Of a DNA stretch of 64,000 bases, positions 11,016 through 45,100 are shown one piece after another. The notes beneath the pieces were generated by a model, which was not told the origin of the DNA, made no database searches, and saw only the letters and a list, made by a program, of their open reading frames with translations. Source of the DNA: Flammeovirgaceae bacterium SG7u.111 (GTDB lineage: Bacteria > Bacteroidota > Bacteroidia > Cytophagales > Flammeovirgaceae); NCBI GenBank assembly GCA_034044135.1, contig CP139021.1:3487635-3551634 (forward strand). The letters run 5' to 3'. Numbering within the stretch: the first letter of the stretch is position 1; each line of letters begins with the position of its first letter. The position numbers and the translations under genes are program-made.

Positions 11016-11039
11016 AGTTTTTCAATTATATATATCCCC

Positions 11040-11114
11040 GCTCCGTTCGTCTAGGGGTTAGGACGCCAGGTTTTCATCCTGGTAACAGGGGTTCGATTCC
11101 CCTACGGAGTACCA
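11040..11114 (+). tRNA. tRNA-Glu (UUC), copy 2
   Basis: Identical in sequence to copy 1 including the encoded CCA, starting 99 nt after it. The 24-nt spacer is AT-rich and ends in TATATCCCC. Confidence 0.98.
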
Positions 11115-11139
11115 AGTTTTTCAATTATTATATATCCCC

Positions 11140-11214
11140 GCTCCGTTCGTCTAGGGGTTAGGACGCCAGGTTTTCATCCTGGTAACAGGGGTTCGATTCC
11201 CCTACGGAGTACCA
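11140..11214 (+). tRNA. tRNA-Glu (UUC), copy 3
   Basis: Identical to copies 1 and 2, starting 100 nt after copy 2, with encoded CCA and the same spacer lengthened by one base. Confidence 0.98.
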
Positions 11215-11239
11215 AGTTTTTCAATTATTATATATCCCC

Positions 11240-11311
11240 GCTCCGTTCGTCTAGGGGTTAGGACGCCAGGTTTTCATCCTGGTAACAGGGGTTCGATTCC
11301 CCTACGGAGTA
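11240..11311 (+). tRNA. tRNA-Glu (UUC), copy 4, no encoded CCA
   Basis: The body is identical to the other copies, but the 3' end reads ACCC in place of ACCA, so CCA must be added by the nucleotidyltransferase. It is followed within 4 nt by the array terminator. Confidence 0.97.
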
Positions 11312-11314
11312 CCC

Positions 11315-18594: not shown

Positions 18595-19098
18595 ATGGAA
18601 AACAAAGAAGACTACCCTTTTCTATCGCTTATGATGGATGAGCAGATTTATGTGATTGAGGACAAGAGTGCAGAGAAAGTGCAGGTGGAAGAACCGATGG
18701 TGCGGGAGCTGAAAATCTATGGGGAAAACAAGAGGAAATACCTCATTTTGGTATCCTACGAAACCAATGATATTCTCAAAAGTAATGAATACGATTTTCT
18801 CATCAAAATCCTCAACGCCATTGAGCTTTCTATCAACGATATTTCCCTTGTAAACCTAAAAGAAAGCCCGATTGATTATGCTTCACTGCGGGAGGAAATC
18901 CAGTTTGACCATGCCGTGGTCTTCGGTATTTCGAAAGAGGAACTGCAGCTTACCACCGAAAAAAGTGTGGAGCGGTACGAGATACAGAAACTAGATGGGG
19001 CGCAGTTCTTGTTCGCCCACCCTCTATCTGAACTGATGGCAGACAAACACAAAAAGCTCCAGTTGTGGAAAACATTGCAACTGTTGCAAGCTATGTGA
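18595..19098 (+). CDS. Conserved protein resembling DNA polymerase III psi (HolD)
   Basis: A 167-residue soluble protein; the ATG at 18595 is taken because the upstream in-frame extension overlaps the Rhs start region. The layout resembles HolD: a first strand YLILVSYE, then a helix ending in LNAIELSINDISLVNL, and a C-terminal KLDGAQFLFAHPLSELMADK followed by KKLQLWKTL. In E. coli psi the matching parts are LLLVTDE, LRALTLSPDQVLQL, LEGAQVASPAL and RAALWQQI. Psi links the clamp loader to SSB. The similarity is by eye only and the protein would otherwise be called hypothetical. Confidence 0.6.
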   Translation: MENKEDYPFLSLMMDEQIYVIEDKSAEKVQVEEPMVRELKIYGENKRKYLILVSYETNDILKSNEYDFLIKILNAIELSINDISLVNLKESPIDYASLREEIQFDHAVVFGISKEELQLTTEKSVERYEIQKLDGAQFLFAHPLSELMADKHKKLQLWKTLQLLQAM

Positions 19099-28562: not shown

Positions 28563-31382
28563 TTGAGCCAACGGACTTACTACAAAACAACGGAAAATTA
28601 CGGTAAACTGAAAATCACGAACATCCCATATAACCTAACCACACTCGCCTTGCTCTTGTGCTTTGCCCTTCCGCAGGCGAATGCACAAGAGTTCAACAAT
28701 CTGGACTCTGCCAAAATTGTACAACCTGGCATAGATTCTTTATATGCATCCTTAGCCGATACGGTCGATACTCCTGCCGATTCTGTTGACGTAGATAGCT
28801 TGACTACAGAGGGTCCTATTGAAACTTATATTGACTATTCTGCAAAAGATTCCATTTACTATGATGTGATCAGCGGTAAGGTGTTTTTATACGGAGAAGC
28901 TAAAGTCACCTATGGGCAAATGTCGATAGAGGCTGCTTACATAGAATATGACATGGCCAGCAATTTGGTAACAGCTGAAGGCGTGCCAGATTCTACGGGT
29001 GAAGTAGTAGGGATGCCTATATTTAGCGAAGGTTCCCAAACCTACAATGCTGAAAAGATGACCTACAATATGGAAACCCAAAAGGGGGTCATCAATAGTA
29101 TCGTAACTCAACAAGGTGATGGATATATTCAAAGTGGCAGGGTAAAGAAAAGTCCTGATGAAGCATTTTATGCTGCACAAAATATTTACACTACTTGTAA
29201 CTTGGATCATCCCCACTTCGGGATTAGGGCAAGAAAGTTGAAAATTGTTCCAGATAAATATGTGATATCAGGACCTTTCAACTTCGAGCTGAACGATGTG
29301 CCAACACCTCTGGGATTTGCCTTTGGGCTTTTCCCCTTTACCAAAGAAAGAAATGCAGGTATCCTTGCTCCACAATACGGTGAGTCTGCTGACAGAGGGT
29401 TTTACTTGAGAGATGGCGGGTTTTACTTGCCTATGGGTGATTATATGGGACTAAAGCTGCTCGGGCAGATTTATTCTTACGGAGGTTGGGGATTGACAAC
29501 TGACCTTTCCTACAGAAAACGATACTCCTTCAATGGCAACCTTAATTTTGCCTACAACAAAATAGTGAGGCAAACTGATGATCTTTCAAGAGATGAGTCT
29601 ACCGATTACTGGCTGAGATGGTCGCATTCTCCTCAGTCGAAAGGGTCGAGCCGATTTTCTGCTAACTTGAATGTAGGTTCTACCAACTATAACCGAAACA
29701 ACTCTTTTAATGCCACAGACTATATTTCGGCATCTTTTAACTCCAGTGTTTCTTATACAAAAACGTTTGAAGGAACGCCTTTTTCTATGGGGGCAAATAT
29801 CAGGGTGAACCAAAACGTAAACACTCAGATAACTAACATGAACCCGCAGGCAAACTTTGCCATGAGAAGGATCTATCCTTTCAAAAAGAAGGGGTCTACA
29901 TCTAAAAGCCCCCTTGCTCAATTAAACCTTTCCTATTCATTCGACACAAAGGCTACGATCACTAACAATGAAACCGGGACAAGTTTTCCATTTACAGTAT
30001 ATGTCGAAGAATCCGATGATGATGATATTTTTGATACAAGCACTGATGATGAAGACGATGAAATCCCTGACTTTTTCTCAAATATTGGCGATTATATACA
30101 AGATGCGGAATATGGCGCTATTCATCGAATTCCGATTTCAACAAACCTTACCTTGTTGAAATATTTTCAAATTGCCCCGAGCGTAAATTTCAATGAATAT
30201 TGGTTTCCGAAAAGTTATAATTACAAGTGGTCGGATACTAAAAATGCTGTAGAAGTAGACACCCTTAATGGCTTTGCTAGGGCTTATGATTATAGCGGTG
30301 GTGCTAGTATGAGCACAAGGTTCTATTTTTTCTATTACCCTGTAGGTCAAAAAGTTGACAGGATCAGGCATATGGTCACACCTTCTATTAGCTATAACTA
30401 TCGCCCAGATTTTGGTGACCCGCGTTTTGGGTTTTATCAAAATGTACAAACAGATACAACTGGAACTAATTTTAGTCAGGTATCAAGGTATTTAGGAGGT
30501 ATATATGGAGGACCTAGTGCAGGAAGAAGCAGCAGTGTCAGCTTATCGCTTAATAACCAGTTGGAGGCTAAGGTCCGCTCGAATAAGGACTCCACCGACG
30601 AATATATAAAAGTACCCCTGCTTCAAAGTTTTGGAGCAAGCACAAGTTACAATTTTGCTGCAGATTCCTTCAACCTCTCCAATATTACGTTCAATGCCCG
30701 TACTACCCTTTTTAAAAATGTGCCATTCATGGACGGGGTAAGTGTAAATGTCAGCGGCACAATTGATCCGTATGCATGGGAGCTTGAAAAGATAGAATTG
30801 GATGGCGATCCTGACGATGACATTGAATACAAAACCACACAACGAAGAATCAATAAATATGCATGGAATGCTGGGCAAGGAATTGGGTCGCTTAACCGGG
30901 CAAGTCTAAACCTTTCAACATCATTTTCTCCTCCTAAAGATGATAAAAAAGGTGGAGAAGGCGGAAGTGGTCCACGTGGGCAAGGTGGCAGGGCGGAGGA
31001 AGCTGAACGCCAAGACATTGAAGACAACCCTGGAAAATATGTCGATTTTAATATCCCATGGTCGTTAAGGGTGCAATATACACTCGGTTATTCAAAACAA
31101 GGTTTTGCAGAAGCTTCTGTAGTCCAGACAATGAACTTTATGGGTGAAGTAAAGCTTACCGAAAAATGGAAAGTGGGTATTCGCTCAGGATATGACTTTG
31201 AATTGAAGGACTTTTCTTTTACCAGCTTGAACATTTGGAGAGATTTGCATTGCTGGCAAATGAACCTTAGTTGGATTCCTTTCGGTCCTCGCCAGTCATA
31301 CAACATAGATATTAGTGTAAGATCTTCGTTACTGCAAGACTTGAAACTCAGCAAAAGGAATTCTTGGTATGATAGGCTCTAG
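28563..31382 (+). CDS. lptD: LptD-like LPS assembly protein
   Basis: A 939-residue outer membrane protein of the Bacteroidota LptD group. It has a signal peptide (ANA-Q cleavage near residue 41), an OstA-like periplasmic part (about 90-240, YDVISGKVFLYGEAKVTYGQM) and a large beta-barrel whose last segment ends in RNSWYDRL. The domain KNAGILAP-like motif ERNAGILAPQYGE is seen near residue 262. The only in-frame start before the signal is a TTG, since a TGA lies two codons upstream. An acidic loop near residues 480-495 (D-D-D-D-I-F) lies between barrel strands. Its stop lies 14 nt inside the Sua5 gene. Confidence 0.87.
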   Translation: MSQRTYYKTTENYGKLKITNIPYNLTTLALLLCFALPQANAQEFNNLDSAKIVQPGIDSLYASLADTVDTPADSVDVDSLTTEGPIETYIDYSAKDSIYYDVISGKVFLYGEAKVTYGQMSIEAAYIEYDMASNLVTAEGVPDSTGEVVGMPIFSEGSQTYNAEKMTYNMETQKGVINSIVTQQGDGYIQSGRVKKSPDEAFYAAQNIYTTCNLDHPHFGIRARKLKIVPDKYVISGPFNFELNDVPTPLGFAFGLFPFTKERNAGILAPQYGESADRGFYLRDGGFYLPMGDYMGLKLLGQIYSYGGWGLTTDLSYRKRYSFNGNLNFAYNKIVRQTDDLSRDESTDYWLRWSHSPQSKGSSRFSANLNVGSTNYNRNNSFNATDYISASFNSSVSYTKTFEGTPFSMGANIRVNQNVNTQITNMNPQANFAMRRIYPFKKKGSTSKSPLAQLNLSYSFDTKATITNNETGTSFPFTVYVEESDDDDIFDTSTDDEDDEIPDFFSNIGDYIQDAEYGAIHRIPISTNLTLLKYFQIAPSVNFNEYWFPKSYNYKWSDTKNAVEVDTLNGFARAYDYSGGASMSTRFYFFYYPVGQKVDRIRHMVTPSISYNYRPDFGDPRFGFYQNVQTDTTGTNFSQVSRYLGGIYGGPSAGRSSSVSLSLNNQLEAKVRSNKDSTDEYIKVPLLQSFGASTSYNFAADSFNLSNITFNARTTLFKNVPFMDGVSVNVSGTIDPYAWELEKIELDGDPDDDIEYKTTQRRINKYAWNAGQGIGSLNRASLNLSTSFSPPKDDKKGGEGGSGPRGQGGRAEEAERQDIEDNPGKYVDFNIPWSLRVQYTLGYSKQGFAEASVVQTMNFMGEVKLTEKWKVGIRSGYDFELKDFSFTSLNIWRDLHCWQMNLSWIPFGPRQSYNIDISVRSSLLQDLKLSKRNSWYDRL

Positions 31383-32325
31383 TGTCGAAGTTGCAAAACA
31401 GCATTTGATTGATGGGAAACTAGTAGCAATACCTACTGAAACAGTCTATGGACTTGCTGCGAATGCGTTAAACCCAGAAGCAGTTAGCAATATTTTCAAA
31501 GCTAAAAACCGCCCTTCTTTCGACCCGCTCATTTTACATGTAGACAGTTTAGAGAAAGTTAAAGAAATTGTATTAGGGAAAATACCAGAAACGGCGATTA
31601 AATTGGCAAATGCCATTTGGCCAGGACCGCTTACCATGGTACTTCCTCGCAAACCGCACATTCCCGATTTGGTCACGAGCGGTCTGGAAACCGTAGCGAT
31701 ACGCATTCCCAACCACCCGCTTACACTAGAGTTGCTTTCAAAGCTTGACTTCCCTTTGGCTGCACCAAGTGCGAACCCTTTTGGGTACATAAGTCCTACG
31801 GAAGCTCAGCATGTGGAAGCTCAACTTGGAGAGAAAACAGCCTATATTTTAGATGGGGGGAAATGTAAAGTTGGTTTGGAATCGACCATTATTTCTTTTG
31901 CTGGCGAACAACCAACCGTGCTCCGCAAAGGAGGCTTGGCTATTGAAGAATTAGAAAGCTTAATGGGGGCAAAACTTGCCATACGAGAACATTCATCATC
32001 AAGGCCCGATGCCCCTGGGATGTTGCACAAGCACTATTCGCCAAAAGTCCCTTTTGAGCTTGGGGATATAGAGAGCTTACTAAAAGAACATAAAGGGAAA
32101 AATATCGCCACCCTATCTTTGAGCAAAACTTTTAAAGGAATTTCGAGTACATTGCAATTTGTACTTTCTGAAAAAGAAGACCTTTCCGAAGCTGCGAGAA
32201 ACCTTTTTGCCTACCTCCGTACGCTAGACCAACTCCAGCCCGATATCATCTTGGCAGAGCTCGTGCCGGAAGAAGGTCTGGGAAGAGCCATAAATGACAG
32301 GTTGAGAAGAGCCGCGGCGAAATAA
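31369..32325 (+). CDS. L-threonylcarbamoyladenylate synthase (Sua5/YwlC)
   Basis: A 318-residue enzyme that makes threonylcarbamoyl-AMP for the t6A37 tRNA modification. The N-terminal YrdC-type domain (1-200) has PTETVYGLAANAL and the nucleotide motif KAKNRPSFDPL, and ends with LESTIISF. The C-terminal Sua5 domain (about 215-318) starts after RPDAPGMLHKHYSP. Having this second domain makes it a Sua5-type and not the short TsaC form. Its start overlaps the lptD end by 14 nt, so it is probably read from the lptD transcript. Confidence 0.94.
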   Translation: MIGSSVEVAKQHLIDGKLVAIPTETVYGLAANALNPEAVSNIFKAKNRPSFDPLILHVDSLEKVKEIVLGKIPETAIKLANAIWPGPLTMVLPRKPHIPDLVTSGLETVAIRIPNHPLTLELLSKLDFPLAAPSANPFGYISPTEAQHVEAQLGEKTAYILDGGKCKVGLESTIISFAGEQPTVLRKGGLAIEELESLMGAKLAIREHSSSRPDAPGMLHKHYSPKVPFELGDIESLLKEHKGKNIATLSLSKTFKGISSTLQFVLSEKEDLSEAARNLFAYLRTLDQLQPDIILAELVPEEGLGRAINDRLRRAAAK

Positions 32326-32362
32326 AAAAAGCCAAGCCCAAAGACAAAATTGCCTTTGGGCT
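32323..32362 (-). terminator. Terminator of the S46 peptidase gene
   Basis: Stem AGCCCAAAG / CTTTGGGCT; read on the minus strand it is followed by TTGGCTTTTTTT. It overlaps the stop of the Sua5 gene but lacks a T tract in that direction. Confidence 0.75.
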
Positions 32363-32384
32363 AACTGATTCTTCTTTTCTCAAA

Positions 32385-34598
32385 TTAATATTTCTCCAAC
32401 ATCACTTCTTCAAATTCCTTCGCTTTGCTTGGCTTAGAAGTAACCAACGTCATTTCATCTACTAGATGTTTTGCGCCATTGAGTTTGTCGATCACAAAAA
32501 GCACATAGCGGATATCCACATTTATACAGCGCTGAAGCTCAGTTTCGAAAGCAATATCGCCACTCATCGCTTCCCAGTTGCCATCAAATGCTATCCCTAT
32601 CAGCTCGCCTTTCGCATTTATCACCGGGCTGCCCGAGTTGCCACCTGTAATATCATTGTTAGTAATGAAGCCAACTCGCAGCCTTCCATTGTATCCATAG
32701 CGACCAAAGTCTTTCGCTTCAATCAGCTTTTTCAATTTTGGATCAACCACAAACTCAGGGTTATTAGGATCTTCTTTTTGTAAAATCCCATCGGCTGTGG
32801 TGTAGTAGCTGTACAAAGCAGCATCTTCTGGGAAGTAATCACCTACTTGGCCATAGGTAAGCCTCAGCGTTGAGTTGGCATTTGGATAGTAGCTTTTTGC
32901 AGGGTTCATTTCCCTCAAACCAGCTACGTATAGCCTATTGCCTTTATCTATCAGTGCAGACGATTCCTTTTTAATAGGGACTATTTTAGAGAAATAGTTT
33001 CTGAGGAAAGAAGTCGTGGCTTCCATGGCCATATCGCCCATAAGGGTTTCAAAATTCGGCTCGTCCAAAAATTTATTGAGTTTTTCTTCTGAACTAAATA
33101 TAGAAGTCTCAAAAAGCTTGTTGGCATATTTTGCATAATCTCCACCAAAATCATTTTTGATAACTTCAAACACATCGGGAAGTTGGTCGGCGGGAACATC
33201 TGCCTCGTACATTTCGAGCAAAGCAGTTAAAATTTTCTGATCGGTGGGAGCATTATAATCTTTAAAATGCTTTTTGGCACTTTCCCTAAAGTCAGCTATC
33301 ATTTTGTCGACTGCCTCTTTATCTGCATCTGGCTGTTGGAGCGCACCTGCCAGTTCAGAATATTCGTATGCCATAGGGAGAATTTCCGTTCCAAAAACCG
33401 ATTCGTTAAGGTGATTCCAAGTCATCTCGGTTTTCGCCTGCATCTTATATCCCTCTTCCAACATAATTAGAGCCTTTCCGTACTTTTCTTTTCTGGCCGC
33501 ATCTGCATTTACCCAGTTTTGGAAAGCTTCCTCTTGCGCTTTTTTCTTATCGTAAATATCTAGCCTTTTCAAACCCTTGGTTTGCCCAATAAAATACTTC
33601 CAATAGTTACTTACACTCGCATATTTTGAGGCATATTGCAACCTGATTTTCTCATCAGAATCCATATCTTGCTTCATCAATTCCAGCTTCTTGCCTCTGA
33701 TATCCACTCGCTTAGGGTTCGATTGTTCAATAGCTAGTTTTACTCCGTAAGAAGTAAGGTAACGGTCGGTAGAACCTGGGTAGCCCATCACCATAGTAAA
33801 ATCATTTTTCTTCACGCCATCTAGCGAAACAGGCAAATGTTTTTTGGGTTTGAGTGGAACGTTGTCTTCCGCATATTCTTTAGGATTCCCGTCTTTTCCT
33901 GTATAAATCCTGAGCATGGAGAAGTCTCCTGTATGGCGAGGCCACATCCAGTTGTCGGTATCGCCACCAAACTTGCCAATCGACTCCGCAGGCGCTCCGA
34001 CTAGCCTTACATCGGTGTAGGTTTGGTACACGAACATGTAAAACTCATTTCCATCAAAAAATGGTTTCACCGAAACCTCATATTTTCCATCTTCAGCAGC
34101 GCCTTCTTCGAGTCCTTTACTGATCTCTGCTATTTTCTGAGACCTTTCTTGCTCGGTCATTTCTGGCTTTAATTCGCCGAGAATCTTGCCGCTCACGTCT
34201 TCCATCCTTACCAAAAAAGAAGCTGTAAGTCCTTCGTTTGGCAATTCTTCTTTCAAGCTTTTCGCCCAAAAACCATTTTTCAGGTAATCTTTCTCTACGG
34301 TACTATGGTTTTGGATAAGGTCATAAGCACAGTGGTGATTGGTTAGGAGAAGTCCTTGGGAAGAAACCACTTCGGCAGTGCAAAACCCGCCGCCCAACAT
34401 CACGATCGCATCTTTCAAACTTGCATTGTTGATGCTATAAATTTCCTCGGGGCTCAATTTCAAGCCCATTTTTTTCATATCTGCATAATTGAGCCTTTCC
34501 ACAAACATGGGAAGCCACATGCCCTCGTCTGGCGGTGTAGCTTTACTCGCTAGTCCTGACACTATCAGTAGTGTAACTACTATTAATTTTTTGAACAT
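32385..34598 (-). CDS. S46 dipeptidyl-peptidase (DPP7-like)
   Basis: A 737-residue periplasmic serine peptidase that removes dipeptides from peptide N-termini. It has a signal peptide (about 1-20) and a chymotrypsin-like fold with a helical insertion. The triad is H89 (TNHHC), D225 (RHTGDFS) and S655 (GGNSGSPV). The residue at 673 is Gly (IAFDGNWE); in this family Gly at 673 goes with hydrophobic P1 preference (DPP7) and Arg with acidic P1 (DPP11). The numbering matches the Porphyromonas enzymes exactly by my count. Such enzymes help asaccharolytic or proteolytic Bacteroidota use peptides. It is monocistronic. Confidence 0.95.
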   Translation of the reverse strand: MFKKLIVVTLLIVSGLASKATPPDEGMWLPMFVERLNYADMKKMGLKLSPEEIYSINNASLKDAIVMLGGGFCTAEVVSSQGLLLTNHHCAYDLIQNHSTVEKDYLKNGFWAKSLKEELPNEGLTASFLVRMEDVSGKILGELKPEMTEQERSQKIAEISKGLEEGAAEDGKYEVSVKPFFDGNEFYMFVYQTYTDVRLVGAPAESIGKFGGDTDNWMWPRHTGDFSMLRIYTGKDGNPKEYAEDNVPLKPKKHLPVSLDGVKKNDFTMVMGYPGSTDRYLTSYGVKLAIEQSNPKRVDIRGKKLELMKQDMDSDEKIRLQYASKYASVSNYWKYFIGQTKGLKRLDIYDKKKAQEEAFQNWVNADAARKEKYGKALIMLEEGYKMQAKTEMTWNHLNESVFGTEILPMAYEYSELAGALQQPDADKEAVDKMIADFRESAKKHFKDYNAPTDQKILTALLEMYEADVPADQLPDVFEVIKNDFGGDYAKYANKLFETSIFSSEEKLNKFLDEPNFETLMGDMAMEATTSFLRNYFSKIVPIKKESSALIDKGNRLYVAGLREMNPAKSYYPNANSTLRLTYGQVGDYFPEDAALYSYYTTADGILQKEDPNNPEFVVDPKLKKLIEAKDFGRYGYNGRLRVGFITNNDITGGNSGSPVINAKGELIGIAFDGNWEAMSGDIAFETELQRCINVDIRYVLFVIDKLNGAKHLVDEMTLVTSKPSKAKEFEEVMLEKY

Positions 34599-34905
34599 TT
34601 TGCTGTGTTTTAATGGTTATTTAATGATTCTGAAGCTGGGTTGGGAAGCTGTAACTTTAGTTTTAAAAGGCCTAAAAAGTAGTGTCCCAGCTATTTTAAA
34701 GGATAATATTACTACATCTTTCTTATTAAAGTAAATTAATTTAGCACTTCGGTAATTATGTGTGATGGCAAGCTTTTTTTGAGGGGTGTACGGAAACATA
34801 GCAGCTTTATGCAATTTTGTTGCAAATAGTATTTTGTTGAGAGTACAACTTTCTAATCTTTAAAGTAAATTGCGGCATTGATAGTTTTTGAAACACAGCT
34901 ATAAC
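34599..34905. other. 307-bp intergenic region
   Basis: Lies between the S46 gene and the DUF3299-like gene. AT-rich, with no good promoter match, repeat or RNA recognised. A small inverted repeat, GTTG/CAAC around 34837-34850, is too short to assign. Confidence 0.5.
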
Positions 34906-35358
34906 ATGAAAATAAAATCAAGAAAACTCCCCGTATTACTTCTTTTATTGCTTTTATCGTCGTCAGTTTTTTCACAAGAAAACGATAAGCAATGGGAAGT
35001 TTGGGGAAAATTGACTTCTATTGACTGGGAATACAAGTACAGTGAAATGTATAAAACCGAGATCGGCTTTCCTAAATTCAACAAAGAAGTAAAAGACTTG
35101 GATGGAAAAGAGGTGACCATAAAAGGCTATGTGATTCCATTGGAGACCGAAGACAACTCTATCATAATTTCTTCCCTTCCCTACTCTAGCTGTTTCTTTT
35201 GCGGTGGCGGAGGAGTAGAAACCGTAATGGCAGTTTTCCCTGATGAGCAACGGAAATACGAACTGGAAACAGTAACCTTTAAAGGTGTATTGGAACTGAA
35301 CAACGGAGAAACAGGGCTGATCTACAACCTAAAAAATGCTTTTGAAGTAGAAGAATAG
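34906..35358 (+). CDS. DUF3299-like exported protein
   Basis: A 150-residue exported protein with a signal peptide (VFS-Q cleavage near residue 24). The body has GYVIPLETEDNSIIISSLPYSSCFFCGGGGVET, where SSCFFCGGGG sits at the place of the ACIHTPPP-type segment of DUF3299 proteins, which suggests a distant member. The two cysteines separated by two aromatics could bind a metal. It precedes an ABC ATPase (72 bp) and an FtsX-like permease with a histidine-rich loop, in what looks like a three-gene unit for transport of a divalent metal, perhaps zinc. The ATG at 34906 is preferred to a TTG 18 nt upstream. Confidence 0.75.
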   Translation: MKIKSRKLPVLLLLLLLSSSVFSQENDKQWEVWGKLTSIDWEYKYSEMYKTEIGFPKFNKEVKDLDGKEVTIKGYVIPLETEDNSIIISSLPYSSCFFCGGGGVETVMAVFPDEQRKYELETVTFKGVLELNNGETGLIYNLKNAFEVEE

Positions 35359-35430
35359 TTTTGTCTTTCATAAAGACAGCCCGTCAATACTTTACTACCA
35401 TTTTCATCAATAACCACTTCACACCAAGCT

Positions 35431-36087
35431 ATGCTAGAAACTAAAAGCTTGTGCACCAGCTATGACGGATCAACTATTTTCCGTTTTCCCAACTGGAAAC
35501 TCGCGCAAGGAGAACAAAGCTTAATAATAGGCAAATCAGGCACTGGGAAAACAACACTTCTTCACTTGCTGGCAGGAATCTTAAAGCCTACTGAAGGGGA
35601 AATACTGATAGCTGGGACGGATATCGGAAAATTGAAAGGTGCTACAAGAGACAAATTCAGAGGACAAAACATTGGTCTTATTTTCCAAAAACCACACCTT
35701 ATCGATTCGCTGAGCGTGAAGGAAAACATGATGATGGCAAAGTATTTTGCCGGCTTGCCCCAAGATCTTGCTGCATTAAAATCATACTTAAAAGAACTGA
35801 GCATTGAACACAAGCTGAACAGCCCGGTCTATGCACTTAGCCAAGGGGAAGCTCAGCGGGTATCCATCGCTCGGGCGATGCTCAACGAGCCCAAATTGAT
35901 TTTGGCTGATGAACCAACCTCCAGCCTCGACGATGAAAACTGTAAATCGGTCGCTAATTTGCTTTTGGCTCAAGCCAAAAAACATACGGCTACTTTAGTG
36001 ATTTCTACTCACGATCACCGCCTCAAAAACATGATATCCAACCAATTGGAACTAAAAAAAGAAGATTTACTTTCACATTCAGCATAA
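35431..36087 (+). CDS. ABC transporter ATPase (LolD/MacB-like)
   Basis: A 218-residue ATPase of the MacB/LolD group. Walker A is GKSGTGKTT near residues 34-42, the Q-loop is IFQKPHL, the ABC signature is LSQGEAQRVSIARA and Walker B is LILADEPTSSLD, followed by STHD with the switch histidine. It is 7 bp from the downstream FtsX-like permease and 72 bp from the DUF3299-like gene, so the three are probably one operon. ATPases of this group drive mechanotransmission on FtsX-fold permeases rather than classical import. Confidence 0.95.
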   Translation: MLETKSLCTSYDGSTIFRFPNWKLAQGEQSLIIGKSGTGKTTLLHLLAGILKPTEGEILIAGTDIGKLKGATRDKFRGQNIGLIFQKPHLIDSLSVKENMMMAKYFAGLPQDLAALKSYLKELSIEHKLNSPVYALSQGEAQRVSIARAMLNEPKLILADEPTSSLDDENCKSVANLLLAQAKKHTATLVISTHDHRLKNMISNQLELKKEDLLSHSA

Positions 36088-36094
36088 ACGCACC

Positions 36095-37426
36095 ATGAAC
36101 CTCATCAAAATCAGCTGGAATTATTTACTTTCAAAGCCACTCAATACCTTTCTCAATTTATTGATCCTTGCCCTTGGCTTGGCCACCATTGTGATCTTGA
36201 GTATATTGAGTGTTCAGTTTGAAGAAAAGATTGATAGTAACAGTAAAAAGATCGACTTAGTAGTGGGGGCAAAAGGCAGCCCGCTACAGTTGATTTTATG
36301 CAACATTTTTCACGTTGATTTCCCCACAGGCAATATCGAATTAGCAGAAGCAGAGACCCTTGCCAATAATCCTTTGCTCAAATCAGCAGTGCCTTTGGCT
36401 CTTGGAGATAGCTACAAAAGCTTCCGAATAGTTGGGTCAACTCCCTCCTATCCTGCTATTTATGGATGCGAACTTGCAGAAGGGAAGTTTTGGGAGAAAG
36501 AACTGGAAGTTACTGCGGGTGCTTTTGTCGCCAAGAAACTTGGATTAAAAATTGGTGACACCTTCCACAGTTCACACGGCATAGGGCAAACAAGCCACAG
36601 CCACGAAGACGACAACTTTAAAGTAGTAGGCATCTTGAAACAAAGTAATACGGTGATAGACAATTTATTACTTTGCGATATTCCAAGTGTTTGGCGAGTC
36701 CATGAAACGCACGAAGAACACGAGGAAGAAGTTCATGAAGAGGGGAGACACGATGAGCACGGTCATGAAACGGAATCTCACAAAGGGCATGACCATGAAG
36801 AAGATGAAGCCCATCACCACGGAGAAGAGGAGTATCATCACGCAGAGGCTGTTGGGAAATTGGGAGTACCCATGGAAGAAGACAAGCAAATCACCTCTAT
36901 GCTTTTGAAGTTCAAAACCCCTTTAGCGGCTATTCAACTACCTCGTTTTATAAATGGGCAAACTAATATGCAAGCTGCTTCTCCAGCATTTGAAACTGCT
37001 CGGTTGTATTCAATTTTGGGCGTAGGTACTGACCTTATAAAAGGCTTTGCTTATATCATTGTATTCATCGCCATTTTGAGTATTTTCATAGCTCTGTACA
37101 ATGCACTAAAAGAGCGAAAATACGATTTGGCAATTATGCGCTCACTAGGTTGCTCTAAAGAAAAATTGGTAGTAATGGTATTACTAGAGGCGACTATGCT
37201 CACCTCACTGAGCGTGTTGTTTGGCTTGTTCTTAGCTCACGGGGTAATTGAAACCATAGCGCAAACTGTTGAGGAAACGGGTAAAATTGGATTAACCGGA
37301 TTCGTTTTTATTCCAGAAGAAATAATGGTGATTGCAGCCGCAATAACAATCGGTCTGGTAACAGCGTTAATACCAGCTATTCAGGCATATAAAACAGATA
37401 TTTCAAAAGTTCTGGCAAAGGGATAG
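36095..37426 (+). CDS. FtsX/MacB-like ABC permease with histidine-rich loop
   Basis: A 443-residue permease of the FtsX fold: one N-terminal helix (about 16-40), a large periplasmic part, and three C-terminal helices (about 315-440). Inside the periplasmic part, residues 203-249 carry 15 histidines among many Asp/Glu, with HxxH, HDH and HHH clusters; other His lie at 158-170 (SSHGIGQTSHSH). Such stretches bind Zn2+, Ni2+ or Cu2+. Combined with a DUF3299-like partner, this recalls the Zrg-type zinc system of Vibrio, in which a separate His-rich protein supplies the trap. The function is inferred, and the ion is not proven. Confidence 0.9.
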   Translation: MNLIKISWNYLLSKPLNTFLNLLILALGLATIVILSILSVQFEEKIDSNSKKIDLVVGAKGSPLQLILCNIFHVDFPTGNIELAEAETLANNPLLKSAVPLALGDSYKSFRIVGSTPSYPAIYGCELAEGKFWEKELEVTAGAFVAKKLGLKIGDTFHSSHGIGQTSHSHEDDNFKVVGILKQSNTVIDNLLLCDIPSVWRVHETHEEHEEEVHEEGRHDEHGHETESHKGHDHEEDEAHHHGEEEYHHAEAVGKLGVPMEEDKQITSMLLKFKTPLAAIQLPRFINGQTNMQAASPAFETARLYSILGVGTDLIKGFAYIIVFIAILSIFIALYNALKERKYDLAIMRSLGCSKEKLVVMVLLEATMLTSLSVLFGLFLAHGVIETIAQTVEETGKIGLTGFVFIPEEIMVIAAAITIGLVTALIPAIQAYKTDISKVLAKG

Positions 37427-37546
37427 CGTTTATCCCTAAAATGCATTTACTTTACGAGATAGAACTCTTCAGTTAAATAGTCGCCTCCTTCTTTTCAGAT
37501 TTACTTTAACTAAAAAAGCTATCATCTAAACTGAAATGTCCGCTGT

Positions 37547-37774
37547 ATGTGTCGTTTAAGAAAAGATCATAAAGTCATGTTAGTTTTGGCAATCATTATG
37601 CTGATAGTAGCTATTACACTCACTATCTATGGTATAACTGTAAGAGGTTGGTTCAAGGGAAAGCCAGAAAAAAGCATAAAATACATGGGATATAACATCC
37701 CTGCTTCTAATCATACAAATTCCAAACCAAGCCAAATTCAAACTGTCTCGATTGCCCCATATAACCAGGTGTGA
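37547..37774 (+). CDS. Possible small membrane protein
   Basis: A 75-codon frame with one clear membrane helix (about residues 11-31), then a short basic stretch and a polar tail. The start may be the ATG at 37547 or 37577. Its last 68 bp overlap the 3' end of the convergent porin gene. No family is recognised. The helix placement and the following basic residues look natural, but the overlap weakens it. Confidence 0.35.
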   Translation: MCRLRKDHKVMLVLAIIMLIVAITLTIYGITVRGWFKGKPEKSIKYMGYNIPASNHTNSKPSQIQTVSIAPYNQV

Positions 37775-39743
37775 TAAAATACCCATCGTCCATAATGCCT
37801 TGCAAGGCATTGGTAAGCTTTGCAAAAAAGTTCACGCTTTTGATGTTCAAATTGATGAAGATATCTGACATCAAATACCCTCCTATTTCAAAGTCGTTTT
37901 GCAGATAGAACTGTTGGGTAACAGGCATATAAGCATCAGCATAAAAAGCATTGTGCCAATGAAAATCCAGCCCAACTTGCCCAAAAAGAGCTGACTTGAA
38001 AATAGGCTTCTCCAAATAGATTTGGTAATTGCCAAAAAGCTCTGGCATCCTCAAAATATCTGGGTTTGAGTTTGAGGTATAATGGCCATAGATTTTTTGG
38101 TGCAGATCACCCAAATGGATTTGCAAGTCCAGACCTGCTTGCATCACATCTATTTTAGCTTCCGTCTGTATGGGAATAGCTTCAGTTCCGTAGTAGATAT
38201 AATTGTCGTAATTGATGAGCTTGGCAAAAGGACGCACATTGAAAAATTTATTACTATAGTGGAGAGCTACTTCTGACACCGTATATAATGTATTATCAAA
38301 CTTTCCATAATTGTCCCACTGGAAGTGGTTGCCATAGTAATACAGTTGATTTTGATCTGGCTGAGCCAAAACTCGTGTATGCGAAGCAACGAGGTATTTT
38401 GTATTGATTGCGGCAAAAATCTTGTTCCCTTGCTCTTCACCTATCATACTTTCATATTCTCCCCTAAACTCTATACTCGGCGTTAAGGTATATATCCCCT
38501 TGAAACCAATAAAGTTTTGTGGGTCAATTTTACGGGGAACTTTATCTTGTAGCCTATATTCAAAACGCTGTTTGAAAAGCTTGTTTTTTGCAAAAAAGGA
38601 ATAGTAAAAATTGAGCGCTTTTCCTTTAAGCCCAGCAGTATTTGACAATTCCTGATAGCGCTGGTAATGAACAGACCGATCGGTATCTAAATACGTGTTC
38701 GGGTAAAAAGCACTGTTGGTCGACAGGGCTTGGTCATCATAATTGAAAAGGTGGGTAGATTTATCAATTATATGATAAAGCTGGATGTTATTTTCTCCAA
38801 TGAAGGAGTATTGTTGGAAAACTCTGAACTTCTCCATCCGCCTAAAGCTTTCTACATCGGTAAGCCTATTGCTAAGCTGCCCTCTTCCTAACCTGAAAAG
38901 TTCTTGAATATCACGGGGCTCTTCAGTAGGCTCTGGATCTTCTGGTGGCACATAAGAATCCCAATAAACATCATCTATTTCTAAGCCTCCAGATTCTTGG
39001 ATCGAATGTCTATACGCTTCGGCGTAAGCCAATAATTTATAGCGTTTATTTTCCGATTCGTACCTTGTATTGAATTGATATTCTTCATGCAAATTTCCCG
39101 GACGAGTGTTGCTTGCTCCTACTGCTTCATTTCCAACCAAAAATTTTGCATTTATTCTTCGAATCCTAAAACCTACATTCCACTGAGGGCTGACATTTCG
39201 GGCAAATTTAACATCTAGAATTGAGCGGCCTGCCCCACCTTGCACATAGTACCAGCTCGTATGAGGCGAACGAGTATCAAAATATTCAATTTCATCTGGG
39301 TTAAGCAAATATGGATCGAGGGCATCATACCCGAAACGTACGCCTACCTTGTCGTATTCTTTATAATAAAGCGGTTTAGTAGCACTTCCTGTTGTACCCA
39401 GATCTTGCAACTCAAACTCATCTTGAGCGACAAAATTATACCTGTGCATGTCGTTCAATAATGTATCAATAAAGCGAACAATGCCAGAATTCTCCCTCCA
39501 ATCCGATTCGTAAATAAAAAAAGTTGTTCCCGTTCCATAAACTTGCTCTCCAGCTTTTTCCAAAATCAGCCTTCCTTTCTCATCTACCCTTGCCGAGTCT
39601 GGTCGGTCTTCTCCTAAAAGGCTTTCGTATTCCCCATTATCCCCTAGCTGACCCAATTCTCCTTGATTCCTTTGATTGGGGATCTGAGCCTGAACCGCAT
39701 TAGTCAAGCATAAAAAGAACAATATGTTTATAAATAATTTCAC
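37707..39743 (-). CDS. Putative porin (Porin_10 type)
   Basis: A 678-residue outer membrane protein with a signal peptide (VQA-Q cleavage near residue 20), a proline/acid-rich N-terminal linker and a beta-barrel with many alternating aromatic strands. The opening with RFGYDALDPYLLNPDEIEYFDTRSPHTSWYY fits the Bacteroidota Porin_10 group, whose members are of this size and often end with a strand such as GLVWNLYD. Channel specificity is unknown. It stands alone between the ABC operon and the GNAT gene. Confidence 0.82.
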   Translation of the reverse strand: MKLFINILFFLCLTNAVQAQIPNQRNQGELGQLGDNGEYESLLGEDRPDSARVDEKGRLILEKAGEQVYGTGTTFFIYESDWRENSGIVRFIDTLLNDMHRYNFVAQDEFELQDLGTTGSATKPLYYKEYDKVGVRFGYDALDPYLLNPDEIEYFDTRSPHTSWYYVQGGAGRSILDVKFARNVSPQWNVGFRIRRINAKFLVGNEAVGASNTRPGNLHEEYQFNTRYESENKRYKLLAYAEAYRHSIQESGGLEIDDVYWDSYVPPEDPEPTEEPRDIQELFRLGRGQLSNRLTDVESFRRMEKFRVFQQYSFIGENNIQLYHIIDKSTHLFNYDDQALSTNSAFYPNTYLDTDRSVHYQRYQELSNTAGLKGKALNFYYSFFAKNKLFKQRFEYRLQDKVPRKIDPQNFIGFKGIYTLTPSIEFRGEYESMIGEEQGNKIFAAINTKYLVASHTRVLAQPDQNQLYYYGNHFQWDNYGKFDNTLYTVSEVALHYSNKFFNVRPFAKLINYDNYIYYGTEAIPIQTEAKIDVMQAGLDLQIHLGDLHQKIYGHYTSNSNPDILRMPELFGNYQIYLEKPIFKSALFGQVGLDFHWHNAFYADAYMPVTQQFYLQNDFEIGGYLMSDIFINLNIKSVNFFAKLTNALQGIMDDGYFITPGYMGQSRQFEFGLVWNLYD

Positions 39744-39833
39744 AGAAATTTATCGACTTTTGGTGTTAGTTGAGTTAGGTTAAAATGCTATTATTGAAAG
39801 ACTATTTGATCTCATTGACGGACAAATATTAAA

Positions 39834-40292
39834 CTATTTTAACCATTCGTAAAGATCGTAATGTTCATTGCTCATCCCAATTGCTTTGTACACTCCTTGG
39901 GCATTTGTATTGGTTTTTTCTACATAAAGCCTGATGCCTTTGTAATTCGAAGAGTCTTCTACTATATCTTTTAGGTGGGTAAACATCCTCTTGAATATCC
40001 CTTTTTTTCTATGTTCAGCAAGCACATAAACCGAATGAACCCACATCACATCTCCATTCCTCCAATCGCTCCATTCGTACAACACCAGCGTAGAAGCCGC
40101 TATTTCACCATCCACTTCAGCTACCCAGTAATTTCCCCTCTGAGGCTCAATAAAAAGCCTTTTTACCCCTTCATGCAAAGTTGCACTATCAAGTTCAAGC
40201 TGCTCAGTTTCCCAAGCCATCTTCTGTTGAAACTCAACTATTGTCTCTATATCTTCCCTATGGGCTTTTCTAATGGTGATTGACGAGCTCAT
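39834..40292 (-). CDS. GNAT family N-acetyltransferase
   Basis: A 152-residue acetyl-CoA-dependent transferase. The GNAT fold is seen as ITIRKAHREDIETIVEFQ at the start, the beta strands with YWVAEVDGEIAASTLVLYEWSDW, and the acetyl-CoA pyrophosphate loop VLAEHRKKGIFKRMF in the R/Q-x-x-G-x-G/A position; here the loop reads EHRKKGIFKR. The C-terminal part has LYVEKTNTNAQGVYKAIGM. The substrate is unknown. No operon partner is evident. Confidence 0.9.
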   Translation of the reverse strand: MSSSITIRKAHREDIETIVEFQQKMAWETEQLELDSATLHEGVKRLFIEPQRGNYWVAEVDGEIAASTLVLYEWSDWRNGDVMWVHSVYVLAEHRKKGIFKRMFTHLKDIVEDSSNYKGIRLYVEKTNTNAQGVYKAIGMSNEHYDLYEWLK

Positions 40293-40403
40293 TTATTCTT
40301 AGTTTTTTTGGTTTGTGAACTCGGCAAAAATAACTAAAAAAAGGAATGATTGGAGAAATAGCCCAAGGCATGTTCAAAAATCCGGAAAGAGGGGGATAGT
40401 TGG

Positions 40404-40441
40404 GCAAAAAAGAAGGGTAATACTGTGAAGTATTGCCCTTC
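40404..40441 (-). terminator. Terminator of the PorP/SprF-like gene
   Basis: Stem GAAGGGTAATACT / GTATTGCCCTTC (with a G-U), followed on the minus strand by a TTTTTT run. It lies 15 nt after the stop. Confidence 0.85.
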
Positions 40442-40455
40442 TCATCTTCGATGCT

Positions 40456-41568
40456 TTAAAAATGATCAAACTTCATCAAGTGTTCGTATTTCAATTTCTG
40501 AAATTTTTTCCAAGGGTTTGGACACAAGATTTGAGGATATCCATAATTTCCTTTTTTAATTCCTTTTTCTTTTGGAACAAAGCTATAGGTAATAGAAATT
40601 TCATGAGACCCAGTAGTATTTAAATTAGTAAGCCTCGAAAGGGTATAATCATAACTATAGCCAATGCTAATTGTCCCTAGTCTTATCCCCGTAAGAATAG
40701 CAACAGCATCTTGGTTCAATCCTTTGTATTGTCTTTTCTTGGTGGGAATTCCCCTGTACCAAACCCCTAACATCAAAGGATCTAATGTCAAATAAGTGCC
40801 CAAGCTCAACTGCTCAGATGCTCCTTGGCGAAGATACATAAGTGCTGGAGTGATTGATCTTTCGGGTGGCATATGACGAGGGTTGTACTTCCCTTTTGGG
40901 ATTAAACTGATTTTATATCCTGTATGTACCGTAAGTTTTCTTGGCAGCTTTTCCTTACCTCCCAAAAATGACGTATTCGGTTTGTTGAGATGGCTCACAG
41001 AAAGTCCAAACCACATATTCTGAGAGAATAGCACAAAACCCGAACCTACATCGGCATACCCTTTATACTGTCCTGAAAACTGCTCACTTGTAGGGTTTAG
41101 CGGATCGCTTGGTCCAATAATTTGATCTTCGAATATAAAATCACCAAAATTCAAGGCTCTAACTCCGTAGCCTAGACTTAGACCTGTACTTATCGCATAT
41201 TTATCGTTAACGGGGATATGGTAGGAATACATGACCGCAATATCGGTAGCCGTGATAGGCTTTCCAGCCCCTATGCCTTGGTCGTCTTTTTTTATCATGA
41301 ACCCAACGCCACTTCTTATCTGCTCAAAAAATTGGTCGTAGGAAGCGGCATAGGTAACAAAACTAGCATCTAGCCCTGGCCACTGGTTTCTATAATTGGC
41401 AATAGCCCTTCCTCCACCAGACGCACCTGCAAAAGCAGGGTTTAGGTACAACGGAGCCGCATAGAATTGGGTAAACTGAGGATCCTGCGCCTTTAACCCT
41501 AAAGACATACCCATCAAGAAAAAAACACAGATAGTTCGTTTGATATGGCTGATCAAAAGTTTATTCAT
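40456..41568 (-). CDS. PorP/SprF family type IX secretion protein
   Basis: A 370-residue outer membrane protein of the PorP/SprF family. It has a signal peptide (about 1-27, GLKA-Q) and the family opening DPQFTQFYAAPLYLNPAFAGASGG, then beta strands with RNQWPGL and SIGYSYDYTLSRL. SprF-type members are the partners that let type B T9SS cargo (such as SprB) reach the surface. The giant PKD protein with a type B C-terminus is divergent from it 549 bp away, so they are plausible partners. The T9SS core genes themselves are not in the window. Confidence 0.94.
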   Translation of the reverse strand: MNKLLISHIKRTICVFFLMGMSLGLKAQDPQFTQFYAAPLYLNPAFAGASGGGRAIANYRNQWPGLDASFVTYAASYDQFFEQIRSGVGFMIKKDDQGIGAGKPITATDIAVMYSYHIPVNDKYAISTGLSLGYGVRALNFGDFIFEDQIIGPSDPLNPTSEQFSGQYKGYADVGSGFVLFSQNMWFGLSVSHLNKPNTSFLGGKEKLPRKLTVHTGYKISLIPKGKYNPRHMPPERSITPALMYLRQGASEQLSLGTYLTLDPLMLGVWYRGIPTKKRQYKGLNQDAVAILTGIRLGTISIGYSYDYTLSRLTNLNTTGSHEISITYSFVPKEKGIKKGNYGYPQILCPNPWKKFQKLKYEHLMKFDHF

Positions 41569-42117
41569 TTAGCTTATTATTGAACACATGTGATTCAAAT
41601 GATCTTTTTGTTAGTTTTTCTCATCAAGACGAAACGGCAATAGAGGCTTCAGTCTAAACAAGTATAAAATCACAACGTAACATTTGTTAATTAAGTAGGT
41701 TGGTTGCCATTTAAAATTTCAATACCCCTTAAAACCCAACCTCAAACACTATTTTCCCTTCTTACCACATACCGAGCCAAATTCTTACAAGTCCATTTTA
41801 GCCAACTACACTATCCCATTTCTCCTGTTTTGAGACAATCTTTCGCATTTGCCCCCAATGCTGTTTTATAATGGTTTTGGACAGTATTGAAAAATTGAAT
41901 TAAGTCCAACTAAATACATGCTAACAAGTAGCGTTAAAGAGAAAAAGCAAGGTAAAATCTTACATGGAAATGCACTAATACACTATTATGGGAACAGGAA
42001 GAGCATAGAAATGATCTATTAAAAAGCAAATCCTACATGACCTCAAAAGCGGTGCATTTTTTGACCATTTTAACATATTGTTAATGAGTGTAAATAACCA
42101 TCTGGCTATAAAATCAT
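41569..42117. promoter_or_regulatory. 549-bp divergent intergenic region
   Basis: Between the PorP/SprF gene and the giant adhesin gene. AT-rich with no recognised RNA. A perfect dyad TTAACA-TAT-TGTTAA at 42070-42084 is 33 nt before the adhesin ATG and could be an operator. A 34-codon frame at 41918 is not supported as a gene. No exact TAnnTTTG element was found for either gene. Confidence 0.4.
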
Positions 42118-45100
42118 ATGACTTCAAAACTAAACCCTAACATAATTAGCAAGCTGATAATAGTGCTCAGCATGTTCCTGCCCCAGCTAGTTTTGGGGCA
42201 AGGTGAGATTCGATTCGATTATCAGAATGGAAATAGGTGCGGGCTAGGCTATGTAGACTTTTATTACTATCCTGAAGCGACGGCAGGAACTGTGACCAAA
42301 TTGGAATGGGCCTTTGATGATGGTCCTATTGTTACCAAAGAAGGAGGAGCACTTATACCCTCTACTAATTATAAGGCGACTAAAAGCTATGGGCCTGGAA
42401 TATATAATGTTACACTCAAAGCTTTCCACGGAAGCGTAATCAAAACATATACTGAAACAGTAGAGATTTTTCAAATACCCACGGTAGATATCAATCTTAT
42501 TAGCCAATCAGGAACTTGCGCTCCCACCGAATTCATCTTCGAACCACAAGTGACACCGGCACCAGGCACTACTATCGAAGAATATTTCTGGGATTTTGGA
42601 GATGGGAATAACGTGACAGAAACTACCAATAAACAAGTAAGCCACAGCTATACAGTTCCCGGTACTTATTTTATCACTCTTGTGATTACAGATAGCAGAG
42701 GATGTGTGACAACGGAACTTTTCCCTTCATCAACTACGCCAATTGAGGTTGGTGAAGGCTTTAATGCATCTTTCAACTCATCAGGAAACCTAAATTCTTG
42801 TGTAGCACCTCAAACTATAGATTTTGCGGCAAGTCCCGCCGCAAGTAATTATACTTATGACTGGGACTTTGGAGATGGAAATACCTCAACACTTCAAAAC
42901 CCATCAAACACATACACTGCAGTAGGGAATTATAATGTTGAGTTAATAATCACTAACACTGACAATGGCTGCCAAAGAGTTGTAACTAAAAATAACCATG
43001 TCAATATAAGCACCTTTACTCCTGATTTTCAAGTAAATACATCCCCTATTGGTTGCGCTCCCTCATCCGTTCAATTTCAAAATATTTCAAATGTAATTAC
43101 TAGTTCGCAAACTGTAACTTGGAACTTTGGAGATGGTACAGTCATATCCGGAAGGGCAAATAGTGGGTCTTATGAAAGACCTACACATGAATATGCAGCG
43201 CCTGGTACATATTCAGTAACAATGACTATAGTCGATGGTGGCTATGGCTGCAATGGGATTATTACTCAACCAAATATTGTCATTGTCCCTCCCCCTATAG
43301 AAGGTGCTTTTTCTGCTGATAAAACTAGTTTTTGTGAACTAGGCAATCCCGTTTCAACAGTGACTTTTACTCCTGATAGTCTTTCTACAGGAATTACAAG
43401 CTACGAATGGGATTTTGGAGATGGGAATACTTCCACAGCAATAAACCCATCACATACTTACACTGCATTTGGGAGCTACGAAGTGACCCTCACTATCAGA
43501 GATGCAAACGGCTGTTCGGTCACTATTACCAAGAACAACTATATAAATGGAGGTCCTATAGATGCAGATTTTGAAGCAGTTGCCACAGGAGGTTGCCTTC
43601 CTAATTTCGATGTACAACTTACAGACTTGAGCACATCTTTTGTACCTATCACAGGATGGGACTGGGAGATAATAAACGATGCGAATGTGGTTGTTGCAAC
43701 ATCCACCGACCAAAACCCTACCATGACGTTGGTGGATCATGGCGACTACGATGTGAGGTTAACCATCACCACTGCGGAAGGTTGCACAGATACACACTTG
43801 CTCACAGATTATCTCGAAGTTGGTTTCAAGCCTGACTTTATGGACTTCACTCCTTCTGTTACAGAAATATGTAATGGGGAAAATGTGATCTTCACAAATT
43901 CATCTACAATGCCTGCCAATCCATACCCTACGGAATGGCACTGGGATTATTTCAATGCTGGAACAATTAATAACACAGGGTATCATGGTGGTCATACCTA
44001 TGACGATCTTGACCCAATGCTGATTTCCGTTGCACTCTATTCGGAAAACAATGGCTGTTTTGATACATTAGTAAAAAACAACCTTATCGAACTTGCCCCT
44101 CCTAGAGCTAACTTCATTTATAATATGCCAGCTTGTACCGACGGGCTAATCAGTTTTACAAACACATCTGTAGGAGCTTTAAGCTATGAATGGGAAATTA
44201 CAATTGATGGGCAAGCCCCATACACCGAAACTACAGAGCATATTGATATAGATGTTGACCCAGGAACTGCTTGGGAGGTTACACTTACAGCATCCAACAA
44301 TACTTCAAAAGGTGGGTTAGGTTGTGACCACTCTATGACTGCTGATGACATCTTCCCTTCCTTAACCCCAGATTTTAGCACTATCACATCGAATAATGTG
44401 ACTGGTGGAAATTGCTACCCGGTTACTTACGACTTTGATGCCACTGCTTTTGAAATAGTCGGAACTACAATTACTAATTATGATTGGGACTTTGGAAATG
44501 GGGACACAGGTTCTGGAGATAGTCCTTCTGTAACTTACACTGGCTATGGCACTTTCGCAGTCACCCTTGAAGTCACTACAAACGAAGGCTGTACCTACGA
44601 CTTTACTTTCCCCGATATAAATGTATATGGGCCGCAAGTAGATTTTTCCATCAACGATACAGACGCTTGCAAAGACTTTGAATTTGAATTCACCGACAAT
44701 ACCACATCCCTTGCTCCTATTGTAAAAAGGATTTGGGATATGGGCGATGGTTCAGCTCCTGATACTATAACTACTATTTCGGAAACAACCTACAGATACA
44801 CTTATAATAAAGTAAGCTCGCCCAATCAAAGCGATGGCTTTGATGTTATGTTAACCGTAATAGATTCTGTAGGTTGCTCTAAAAGTATTATAAAAACAGT
44901 AACACCAAGCTTTCCAGTTCCTGATTTTAATATTCAGCGAGAAGGAGCTTGTGGGGGCGAAAATATCAAACCGATAAATGCATCAAGTATGTCTGATGTA
45001 ATAAATCCTAAATCTATCAAATGGACATATAGTGATGGAAGGACCGCTACTGGATTTAGTCCAGGAAATCTATTCTTTGCTGGTTCAAGTACAGGCACTG

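Follow-up and report, generated by a model that had tools for sequence, protein, structure and literature searches.

A probable zinc-starvation ABC system of the Zrg type without ZrgA in Flammeovirgaceae bacterium SG7u.111

Three adjoining genes in the genome of Flammeovirgaceae bacterium SG7u.111 (7.7 Mb; contig CP139021.1) raise the question of whether a Zrg-type zinc system can exist without ZrgA, the separate His-rich protein of its known members. They occupy positions 34906–37426 of the 64,000-nucleotide stretch of DNA that was analysed as a whole, hereafter the window. A preliminary description, made from the sequence alone, had read them as a Zrg-like metal system composed of a DUF3299-like protein, a MacB-type ATPase and an FtsX-fold permease into which the His-rich trap had been built. 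It proposed to compare the first protein with DUF3299 profiles and to look for the same three genes in relatives, and it regarded a variable insertion lacking His in homologues as evidence to the contrary. All three open reading frames (ORFs) were confirmed where it had placed them, on the plus strand. Taken together, gene order, homology, invariant His residues, the lack of a detectable ZrgA and a shared palindrome give computational support to the proposal that these genes form a Zrg zinc-starvation ABC system in a variant that lacks ZrgA, and we regard this reading as the probable one.

The permease exceeds the Pfam cut-offs for both MacB_PCD (46 bits, cut-off 27) and FtsX (50.9 bits, cut-off 25.5). 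Its AlphaFold2 model (mean pLDDT 84.1, 29 sequences) has four long transmembrane-like helices (residues 15–50, 297–340, 355–396 and 407–432), a large domain lying between helices 1 and 2, and a disordered region at 208–250 that corresponds to the His-rich loop. The nearest folds are those of the Streptococcus pneumoniae transporter 5xu1, LolE, MacB and a heme exporter, in keeping with a type VII ABC permease and with the fold proposed earlier. As in Zrg systems, a LolD/MacB-type ATPase adjoins it (best NCBIfam model LolD, 172 bits, under the cut-off of 308), again as had been described. We aligned 73 family permeases, of which 29 came from relatives, 28 from more distant named loci and 16 from outside members (P. 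aeruginosa, Aeromonas, Catenovulum, Rhodobacteraceae, Rhizobium, Deinococcus and ten other permeases of the same phylum). His occurs at positions 161, 170 and 203 in all 73, a figure that holds for this set, which was chosen by similarity to the window's permease. None of the three positions is His in any of seven controls, gaps counted, namely LolC, LolE, MacB, the two YbbP halves and two other permease-type ORFs of the host genome (L081 and L087, presumably of the kind named ADOP). With these controls as outgroup, the window's permease groups with the Zrg permeases of P. aeruginosa and Aeromonas (local support 0.919), which places it in the ZrgB/PA4065 clade as represented by these two genera. 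A relation of the permease to those of Zrg systems, as implied by the description, is supported by clade and triad.

The 15 His residues reported for positions 203–249 of the permease were counted exactly, in a segment of 47 residues that also holds 17 Glu and 3 Asp; the remaining 396 residues hold 6 His. Across the family, the corresponding loop (204–265) has at least five His in 14 of the 29 relatives, 20 of the 28 named loci and 8 of the 16 outside members (42/73 in all), three or four in 4, 7 and 2 (13/73), and two or fewer in 11, 1 and 6 (18/73), the count spanning 0 to 40 while the triad stays constant. Many homologues, though not all, also have a His-rich stretch at this position, so chance does not account for the segment. 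A His-rich permease is not special to this locus, the members with at least five His including the permease of a Rhodobacteraceae DUF3299 operon, and the adverse case of a variable insertion poor in His is encountered in part. Judged from the alignment, the loop, His-poor in 18 members, is dispensable in evolution, and a functional metal site is better sought in the invariant His161, His170 and His203. Loop length varies strongly among permeases of one genus; in one permease (L051:8010-9548) the loop reaches 131 residues and contains 40 His, arranged in HDEHDHKHDEHEEHD-like repeats.

ZrgA (PF10986/DUF2796) was over cut-off in none of 296 genomes of the phylum, and the host genome gave no match. 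Four phylum genomes gave partial matches under the cut-off, and there was no match in 14 standing control genomes; the profile was over cut-off in both positive-control records (2/2). For the window's locus, both the His-rich segment inside the permease and the lack of a detectable ZrgA gene are supported.

How close, then, is the unit to the known systems? We compare it here with Vibrio and Pseudomonas as described in PMC9817125, PMC9820375 and PMC11481552. P. aeruginosa PA4063–PA4066 (L223, CP109682.1) likewise encodes an ATPase, a MacB-fold permease and a DUF3299 protein; its permease falls in one clade with the window's and has the same three invariant His, and the operon is zinc-repressed and has Zur boxes (PMC11481552). 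It differs from the window's unit by a separate His-rich DUF2796/ZrgA, by a permease loop with 1 His and by a ACIHVPPPPSNQ motif where the window's first protein has CFFCG. The Vibrio ZrgABCDE system comprises the MacB-like permease ZrgB, the ATPase ZrgC and the DUF3299 protein ZrgE (PMC9820375, PMC9817125). Unlike the window's unit, V. cholerae and V. parahaemolyticus possess a ZrgA with its own His-rich loop, and they also have ZrgD; the likeness is one of published gene content. ZrgD (DUF2607) is described as absent in some Vibrionaceae too (PMC9817125). The zrg genes are induced by zinc shortage in Vibrio, where zrgA aids low-zinc survival when znuA is missing (PMC9817125, PMC9820375), and V. 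cholerae ZrgA stripped of its His loop still functions (PMC9820375), which fits the optional permease loop seen here. Rhodobacteraceae bacterium M382 (L205) has the same operon of ATPase, permease and DUF3299 genes, again with a His-rich permease (15 His in 91) and with no DUF2796-annotated gene in the 10.6 kb shown, but its DUF3299 protein is canonical and it belongs to the Alphaproteobacteria. LolCDE, MacB and HrtBA (type VII ABC) share the permease fold and serve other clients; E. coli LolC, LolE, MacB and YbbP have none of the three invariant His, HrtB being compared by fold only. The ATPase, the permease clade with its triad and the DUF3299-type partner are shared with Zrg systems, zinc control is probably so, and ZrgA is not; the operon is therefore Zrg-like in core ancestry and presumed working, yet not ZrgABCDE as defined. 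The loops of the P. aeruginosa and Aeromonas permeases, both from ZrgA-bearing operons, have one His each, and these two cases suggest, from sequence, that the His-rich part sits on either the permease or ZrgA.

The CFFCGGGG segment noted in the first protein is present at residues 96–103. CFFCG is unchanged across all 15 members of one alignment, and C96, F98, C99 and G100 are invariant in another of 43. By eye, the N-terminal helix of the protein resembles a signal peptide, and its AlphaFold2 model (mean pLDDT 88.8, 43 sequences) has an OB-type fold. The DUF3299 protein of V. parahaemolyticus is ZrgE (PMC9817125), and a relation of the first protein to DUF3299 had been proposed. Against the Pfam model (PF11736) it scores 18.2 bits (E 0.0027), under the curated cut-off of 22, and the profile gave 0 matches in the host genome at E ≤ 0.001. 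With hhalign, in single comparisons, the CFFCG family gave 98.3% (E 1.9e-14) against a mixed DUF3299 set and 79% (E 1.5e-5) against four canonical DUF3299 proteins only. Searched against PDB sequences, the CFFCG profile reached 4hsp (PA4066, a DUF3299 protein) at just E 0.15; thiol-peroxidase and antibody matches in this search (E 0.07 to 2.4) were dismissed as noise. Foldseek ranked 4hsp first for the model (E 2.6e-4, the sole match below 0.001), and VIA-align placed it at rank 7 (Z 7.6), tied with unrelated OB folds. In the PDB profile search and the hhalign alignment with the mixed set, the conserved GACIHxPPP region of canonical DUF3299 coincides with CFFCG, so that a different motif occupies a retained position. 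Homology of the first protein to DUF3299 is supported by these profile and fold comparisons.

In genomes of the same phylum there are intermediate proteins that fit the DUF3299 profile as well as the CFFCG one. Among the matches listed, a permease adjoins the gene in L206, L209, L211, L212, L214 and L215, with an ATPase as well in L211, L212, L214 and L215; neither stands beside it in L207, L208, L210 and L218, and no ATPase or permease match lies beside the DUF3299 gene of Vibrio campbellii (L204). The L213 permease was left out of account. DUF3299 genes adjoin amidohydrolases in L203 and L060, also among the matches listed, so that DUF3299 has further settings too. Of the three CFFCG copies in the host genome, the one in L221 is without a palindrome throughout that 10.5-kb stretch. 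In Flammeovirga (L098–L102), CFFCG genes occur without a transporter in the stretch examined; CFFCG proteins thus form a wider periplasmic family without a name. The gene after the CFFCG gene in L098 is Fur-like by eye. A metagenome-assembled genome titled Thalassovita (L096:6989-8069), possibly mislabelled or a mixed bin, has a CFFCG gene (58% identical) and an ATPase in the window's order and no permease match.

The permease was matched at E ≤ 1e-20 in 30 of 58 genomes searched, the host included. ATPase, permease and CFFCG gene occur together in 19 of 29 relatives' loci (L060, the second locus of G016, being counted separately), three further loci have ATPase and permease, and one of the 29 is broken by a contig end. 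The CFFCG alignment, run against named genomes, yielded at least 594 candidate stretches, at least 560 of them confirmed. Of these the best 80 were kept; by record title 79 belong to Bacteroidota groups, mostly Saprospiraceae, and 28 have the permease within the stretch, some stretches being shortened by contig ends. When genome contigs were scanned with the single permease sequence, 67 stretches fitted the pattern and 0 were confirmed.

Further support comes from a palindrome, the sole match to TGCAAN5TTGCA in the window, located 81 bp before the first ATG; a first-order Markov estimate predicts 0.17 such matches per 64 kb and 0.0008 per 300 bp. The host genome contains 21 sites matching TGCAACNNNGTTGCA with at most one mismatch, versus 7 for the reversed control. 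Among the 20 others, whose flanks were examined in 17 stretches, 9 precede six genes or operons, 6 lie inside ORFs and 5 stand before genes without evident metal role, to be read beside the control count of 7. Two sites precede an operon (L079:5096-8652; C1:1102595-1106151) for a ZigA-like GTPase (563 of 600 bits with the NCBIfam ZigA model), a second COG0523 GTPase, MerC and a CFFCG paralogue, which we predict to be a second zinc-starvation operon. Two others precede L083:1803-4980, where a small gene without family match, its start lipoprotein-like by eye, is followed by one for a TonB receptor that scores best with the NCBIfam model ZnuD (zinc piracy; 107 bits, cut-off 950); Saprospiraceae locus L149 has a gene pair of this kind close to tandem CFFCG genes. 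Two sites precede an ABC ATPase with a siderophore-type receptor, and single sites stand before a TonB receptor, MerC and an isoprenylcysteine-methyltransferase-like gene, the last without evident zinc link. The exact pattern occurs 38 times versus 4 for the control in 28 genomes. Between –250 and +40, relatives have it before 13/15 MerC genes, 6/28 operons and 9/332 other ORFs (Fisher P 4e-16 and 4e-4 for MerC and operons versus other ORFs, with kinship ignored, many rows from one genus and divergent gene pairs sharing sites). A chance occurrence is countered by the reversed-pattern and other-ORF controls. In relative G011, genes for a Fur-family regulator and a GTP cyclohydrolase lie within the operon, and two palindromes separate it from the divergent genes for MerC and a ZigA-like GTPase. 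Because the palindrome also precedes the ZigA-like GTPase operon, MerC and TonB receptors, the window's operon is probably part of a zinc-starvation (Zur-like) regulon, zinc shortage being indicated by the metallochaperone-type GTPases, TonB receptors and MerC that share it. The host encodes three Fur-family proteins, one with Zur as best NCBIfam model (31.9 bits, far under the cut-off of 167), and we infer that the regulator is Zur. The same architecture could in principle serve nickel or copper, several metals being bound by His-rich loops and CXXC motifs, but the company of a ZigA-like GTPase, a second COG0523 GTPase, a ZnuD-like receptor and a Fur-family regulator makes this very unlikely. 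Among the papers listed by searches of the open-access literature, none dealt with a Zur regulon or a system of this kind in Bacteroidota, or with the permease His triad.

From these elements a mechanism can be proposed. At low zinc, a Fur-family, Zur-like repressor would leave the palindrome and the operon would be expressed. Co-regulated outer-membrane receptors would deliver periplasmic Zn(II), which the flexible His/Glu loop of the permease may collect as an antenna and pass to a fixed site in the periplasmic domain, presumably formed jointly by His161, His170 and His203. The CFFCG OB-fold protein might serve as periplasmic metal chaperone or gate, and ATP hydrolysis by the LolD-like subunit would drive the four-helix MacB-type permease, the putative overall result being zinc supply to the cell. 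We tentatively extend this, as possible rather than probable, to zinc import by an ABC transporter of the MacB superfamily that uses no solute-binding protein. Zinc would be received by the permease's own periplasmic domain, at a three-His entry site common to all members; the His-rich antenna would be optional and interchangeable, carried by the permease in Bacteroidota and Rhodobacteraceae and by the separate ZrgA in Gammaproteobacteria.

Several observations weigh against the ZrgA-less Zrg reading. In 6 of the 29 relatives' loci the permease stands without ATPase or CFFCG gene within about 8 kb on each side; these loci include the two closest relatives (L031 and L032), whose permeases (61% identical) follow an 839-aa ORF. 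Of the best 80 CFFCG loci, 52 lack such a permease in the stretch, which shows that the CFFCG protein also occurs in other settings; given these loci and the three host copies, its role as a dedicated subunit was partly rejected. The 18 His-poor loops include that of Catenovulum (L224), which has no DUF2796 annotated nearby; the loops of Catenovulum, Deinococcus and L060 have 0 or 1 His. A strict swap of ZrgA for the loop was accordingly rejected, as it fits the two ZrgA-bearing cases only and several permeases without a nearby known ZrgA are His-poor as well. The palindrome precedes only 6 of the relatives' 28 operons; among the 28 more distant named loci, it was found before 0/28 operons and 0/183 other ORFs. 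The L083 receptor scores nearly as well with a hemin-receptor model (103 of 317 bits) as with ZnuD, and the Fur-family protein of G011 is closer to PerR (34.7 of 180 bits) than to Zur (19.8 of 167). Finally, those MacB-fold transporters that are well known work as exporters, extractors or mechanotransmitters.

The direction of transport is a matter of dispute for the systems that serve as analogues, since V. cholerae data favour import (PMC9820375) and P. aeruginosa data pyochelin–cobalt export (PMC11481552). The latter study, which counts against a zinc importer as well, argues that PA4064/PA4065 export pyochelin–cobalt, and reports that deleting PA4065 in a znuA zrmB strain makes pyochelin and cobalt accumulate with no further drop in cell zinc; in that background the loss also harmed low-zinc growth (PMC11481552). 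The window's unit might thus be a zinc-starvation-regulated exporter of a metallophore or metal–metallophore complex, its His sites sensing or releasing metal, as the MacB/LolCDE fold of the permease would also allow. We consider this unlikely: low-zinc survival of a V. cholerae znuA zrgA double mutant is down about 100-fold (PMC9820375), and no metallophore biosynthesis gene was seen by eye among the window's ORFs at 30000–42500, seven of them profile-scanned, the rest of the genome not being searched.

A further point against the ZrgA-less reading is that the host genome holds a tandem pair of ABC-3 (ZnuB/MntB-type) permeases, so that the three-gene system is not its sole candidate zinc importer; no ZIP was found in this genome. 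A strong ABC-3 match (E ≤ 1e-20) occurs in 14 of the 30 genomes with the Zrg-type permease and 17 of the 28 without, and in the absence of an inverse relation the permease was rejected as a ZnuABC replacement. It could also be that no metal is translocated at all, the ABC pair acting by mechanotransmission to load or strip zinc on envelope proteins, with the CFFCG protein as client or chaperone. LolCDE and FtsX, which are among the nearest folds, act on periplasmic clients, and the operon partner is a predicted periplasmic OB-fold protein. We hold this to be quite improbable, as the 16 of 30 permease genomes without a strong ABC-3 match would need another inner-membrane route. That point has its limits, since nine of the 16 belong to one genus, four have weak matches over the Pfam cut-off, and MerC or others could serve. 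The dispute over import or export by Zrg-type MacB-fold transporters (PMC9820375 versus PMC11481552) is why the triad matters: three invariant His allow a small direct mutational test in any family member, and natural ZrgA-less variants reveal the capacities of the core by itself. For this part of Bacteroidota, a candidate zinc-responsive operator and regulon can now be put to the test as well.

Table 1. Features of the three-gene unit, in positions of the window
Feature	Position	Strand	Remarks
Candidate zinc-responsive (Zur-like) operator, palindrome TGCAATTTTGTTGCA	34810..34824	.	
Gene for secreted OB-fold protein, DUF3299/ZrgE-related, CFFCG subfamily	34906..35358	+	150 aa from ATG
CFFCG motif, residues 96–100 of the first protein	35191..35205	+	alignments of 15 and 43 members
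Gene for ABC ATPase, LolD/MacB-type	35431..36087	+	218 aa; PF00005 121 bits
Gene for MacB/LolCE-fold (type VII) permease, Zrg-type	36095..37426	+	443 aa
Invariant His161 of the permease	36575..36577	+	73/73 family members, 0/7 controls
Invariant His170 of the permease	36602..36604	+	73/73 family members, 0/7 controls
Invariant His203 of the permease, opening the His-rich segment	36701..36703	+	73/73 family members, 0/7 controls
His/Glu-rich periplasmic loop, permease residues 203–249	36701..36841	+	disorder predicted at 208–250

The ORF listing of the first gene begins at an upstream TTG (34888). The unit is flanked on the opposite strand by Pfam-assigned S46 peptidase (32385–34598) and Porin_10 (37707–39743) genes, and the downstream gap also holds one small ORF without family assignment (37547–37774). 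At 19076–19088 the window has TGCAACTGTTGCA, with the same half-sites as the palindrome and a shorter spacer.

Two records of the plasmid collection appear chromosome-like, NZ_AP026896.1 (Aeromonas; 4.9 Mb, 18 annotated features) and NZ_CP050465.1 (Vibrio; 2.1 Mb, 2 annotated features). Elsewhere in the window, positions 42118–50982 encode a 2954-aa protein, PKD-like by eye, with long near-identical internal repeats in its translation that Tandem Repeats Finder, with a period limit of 500 bases, misses. Four tandem tRNA-Glu(ttc) genes lie at 10941–11313 with a spacing of 99–100 bases.

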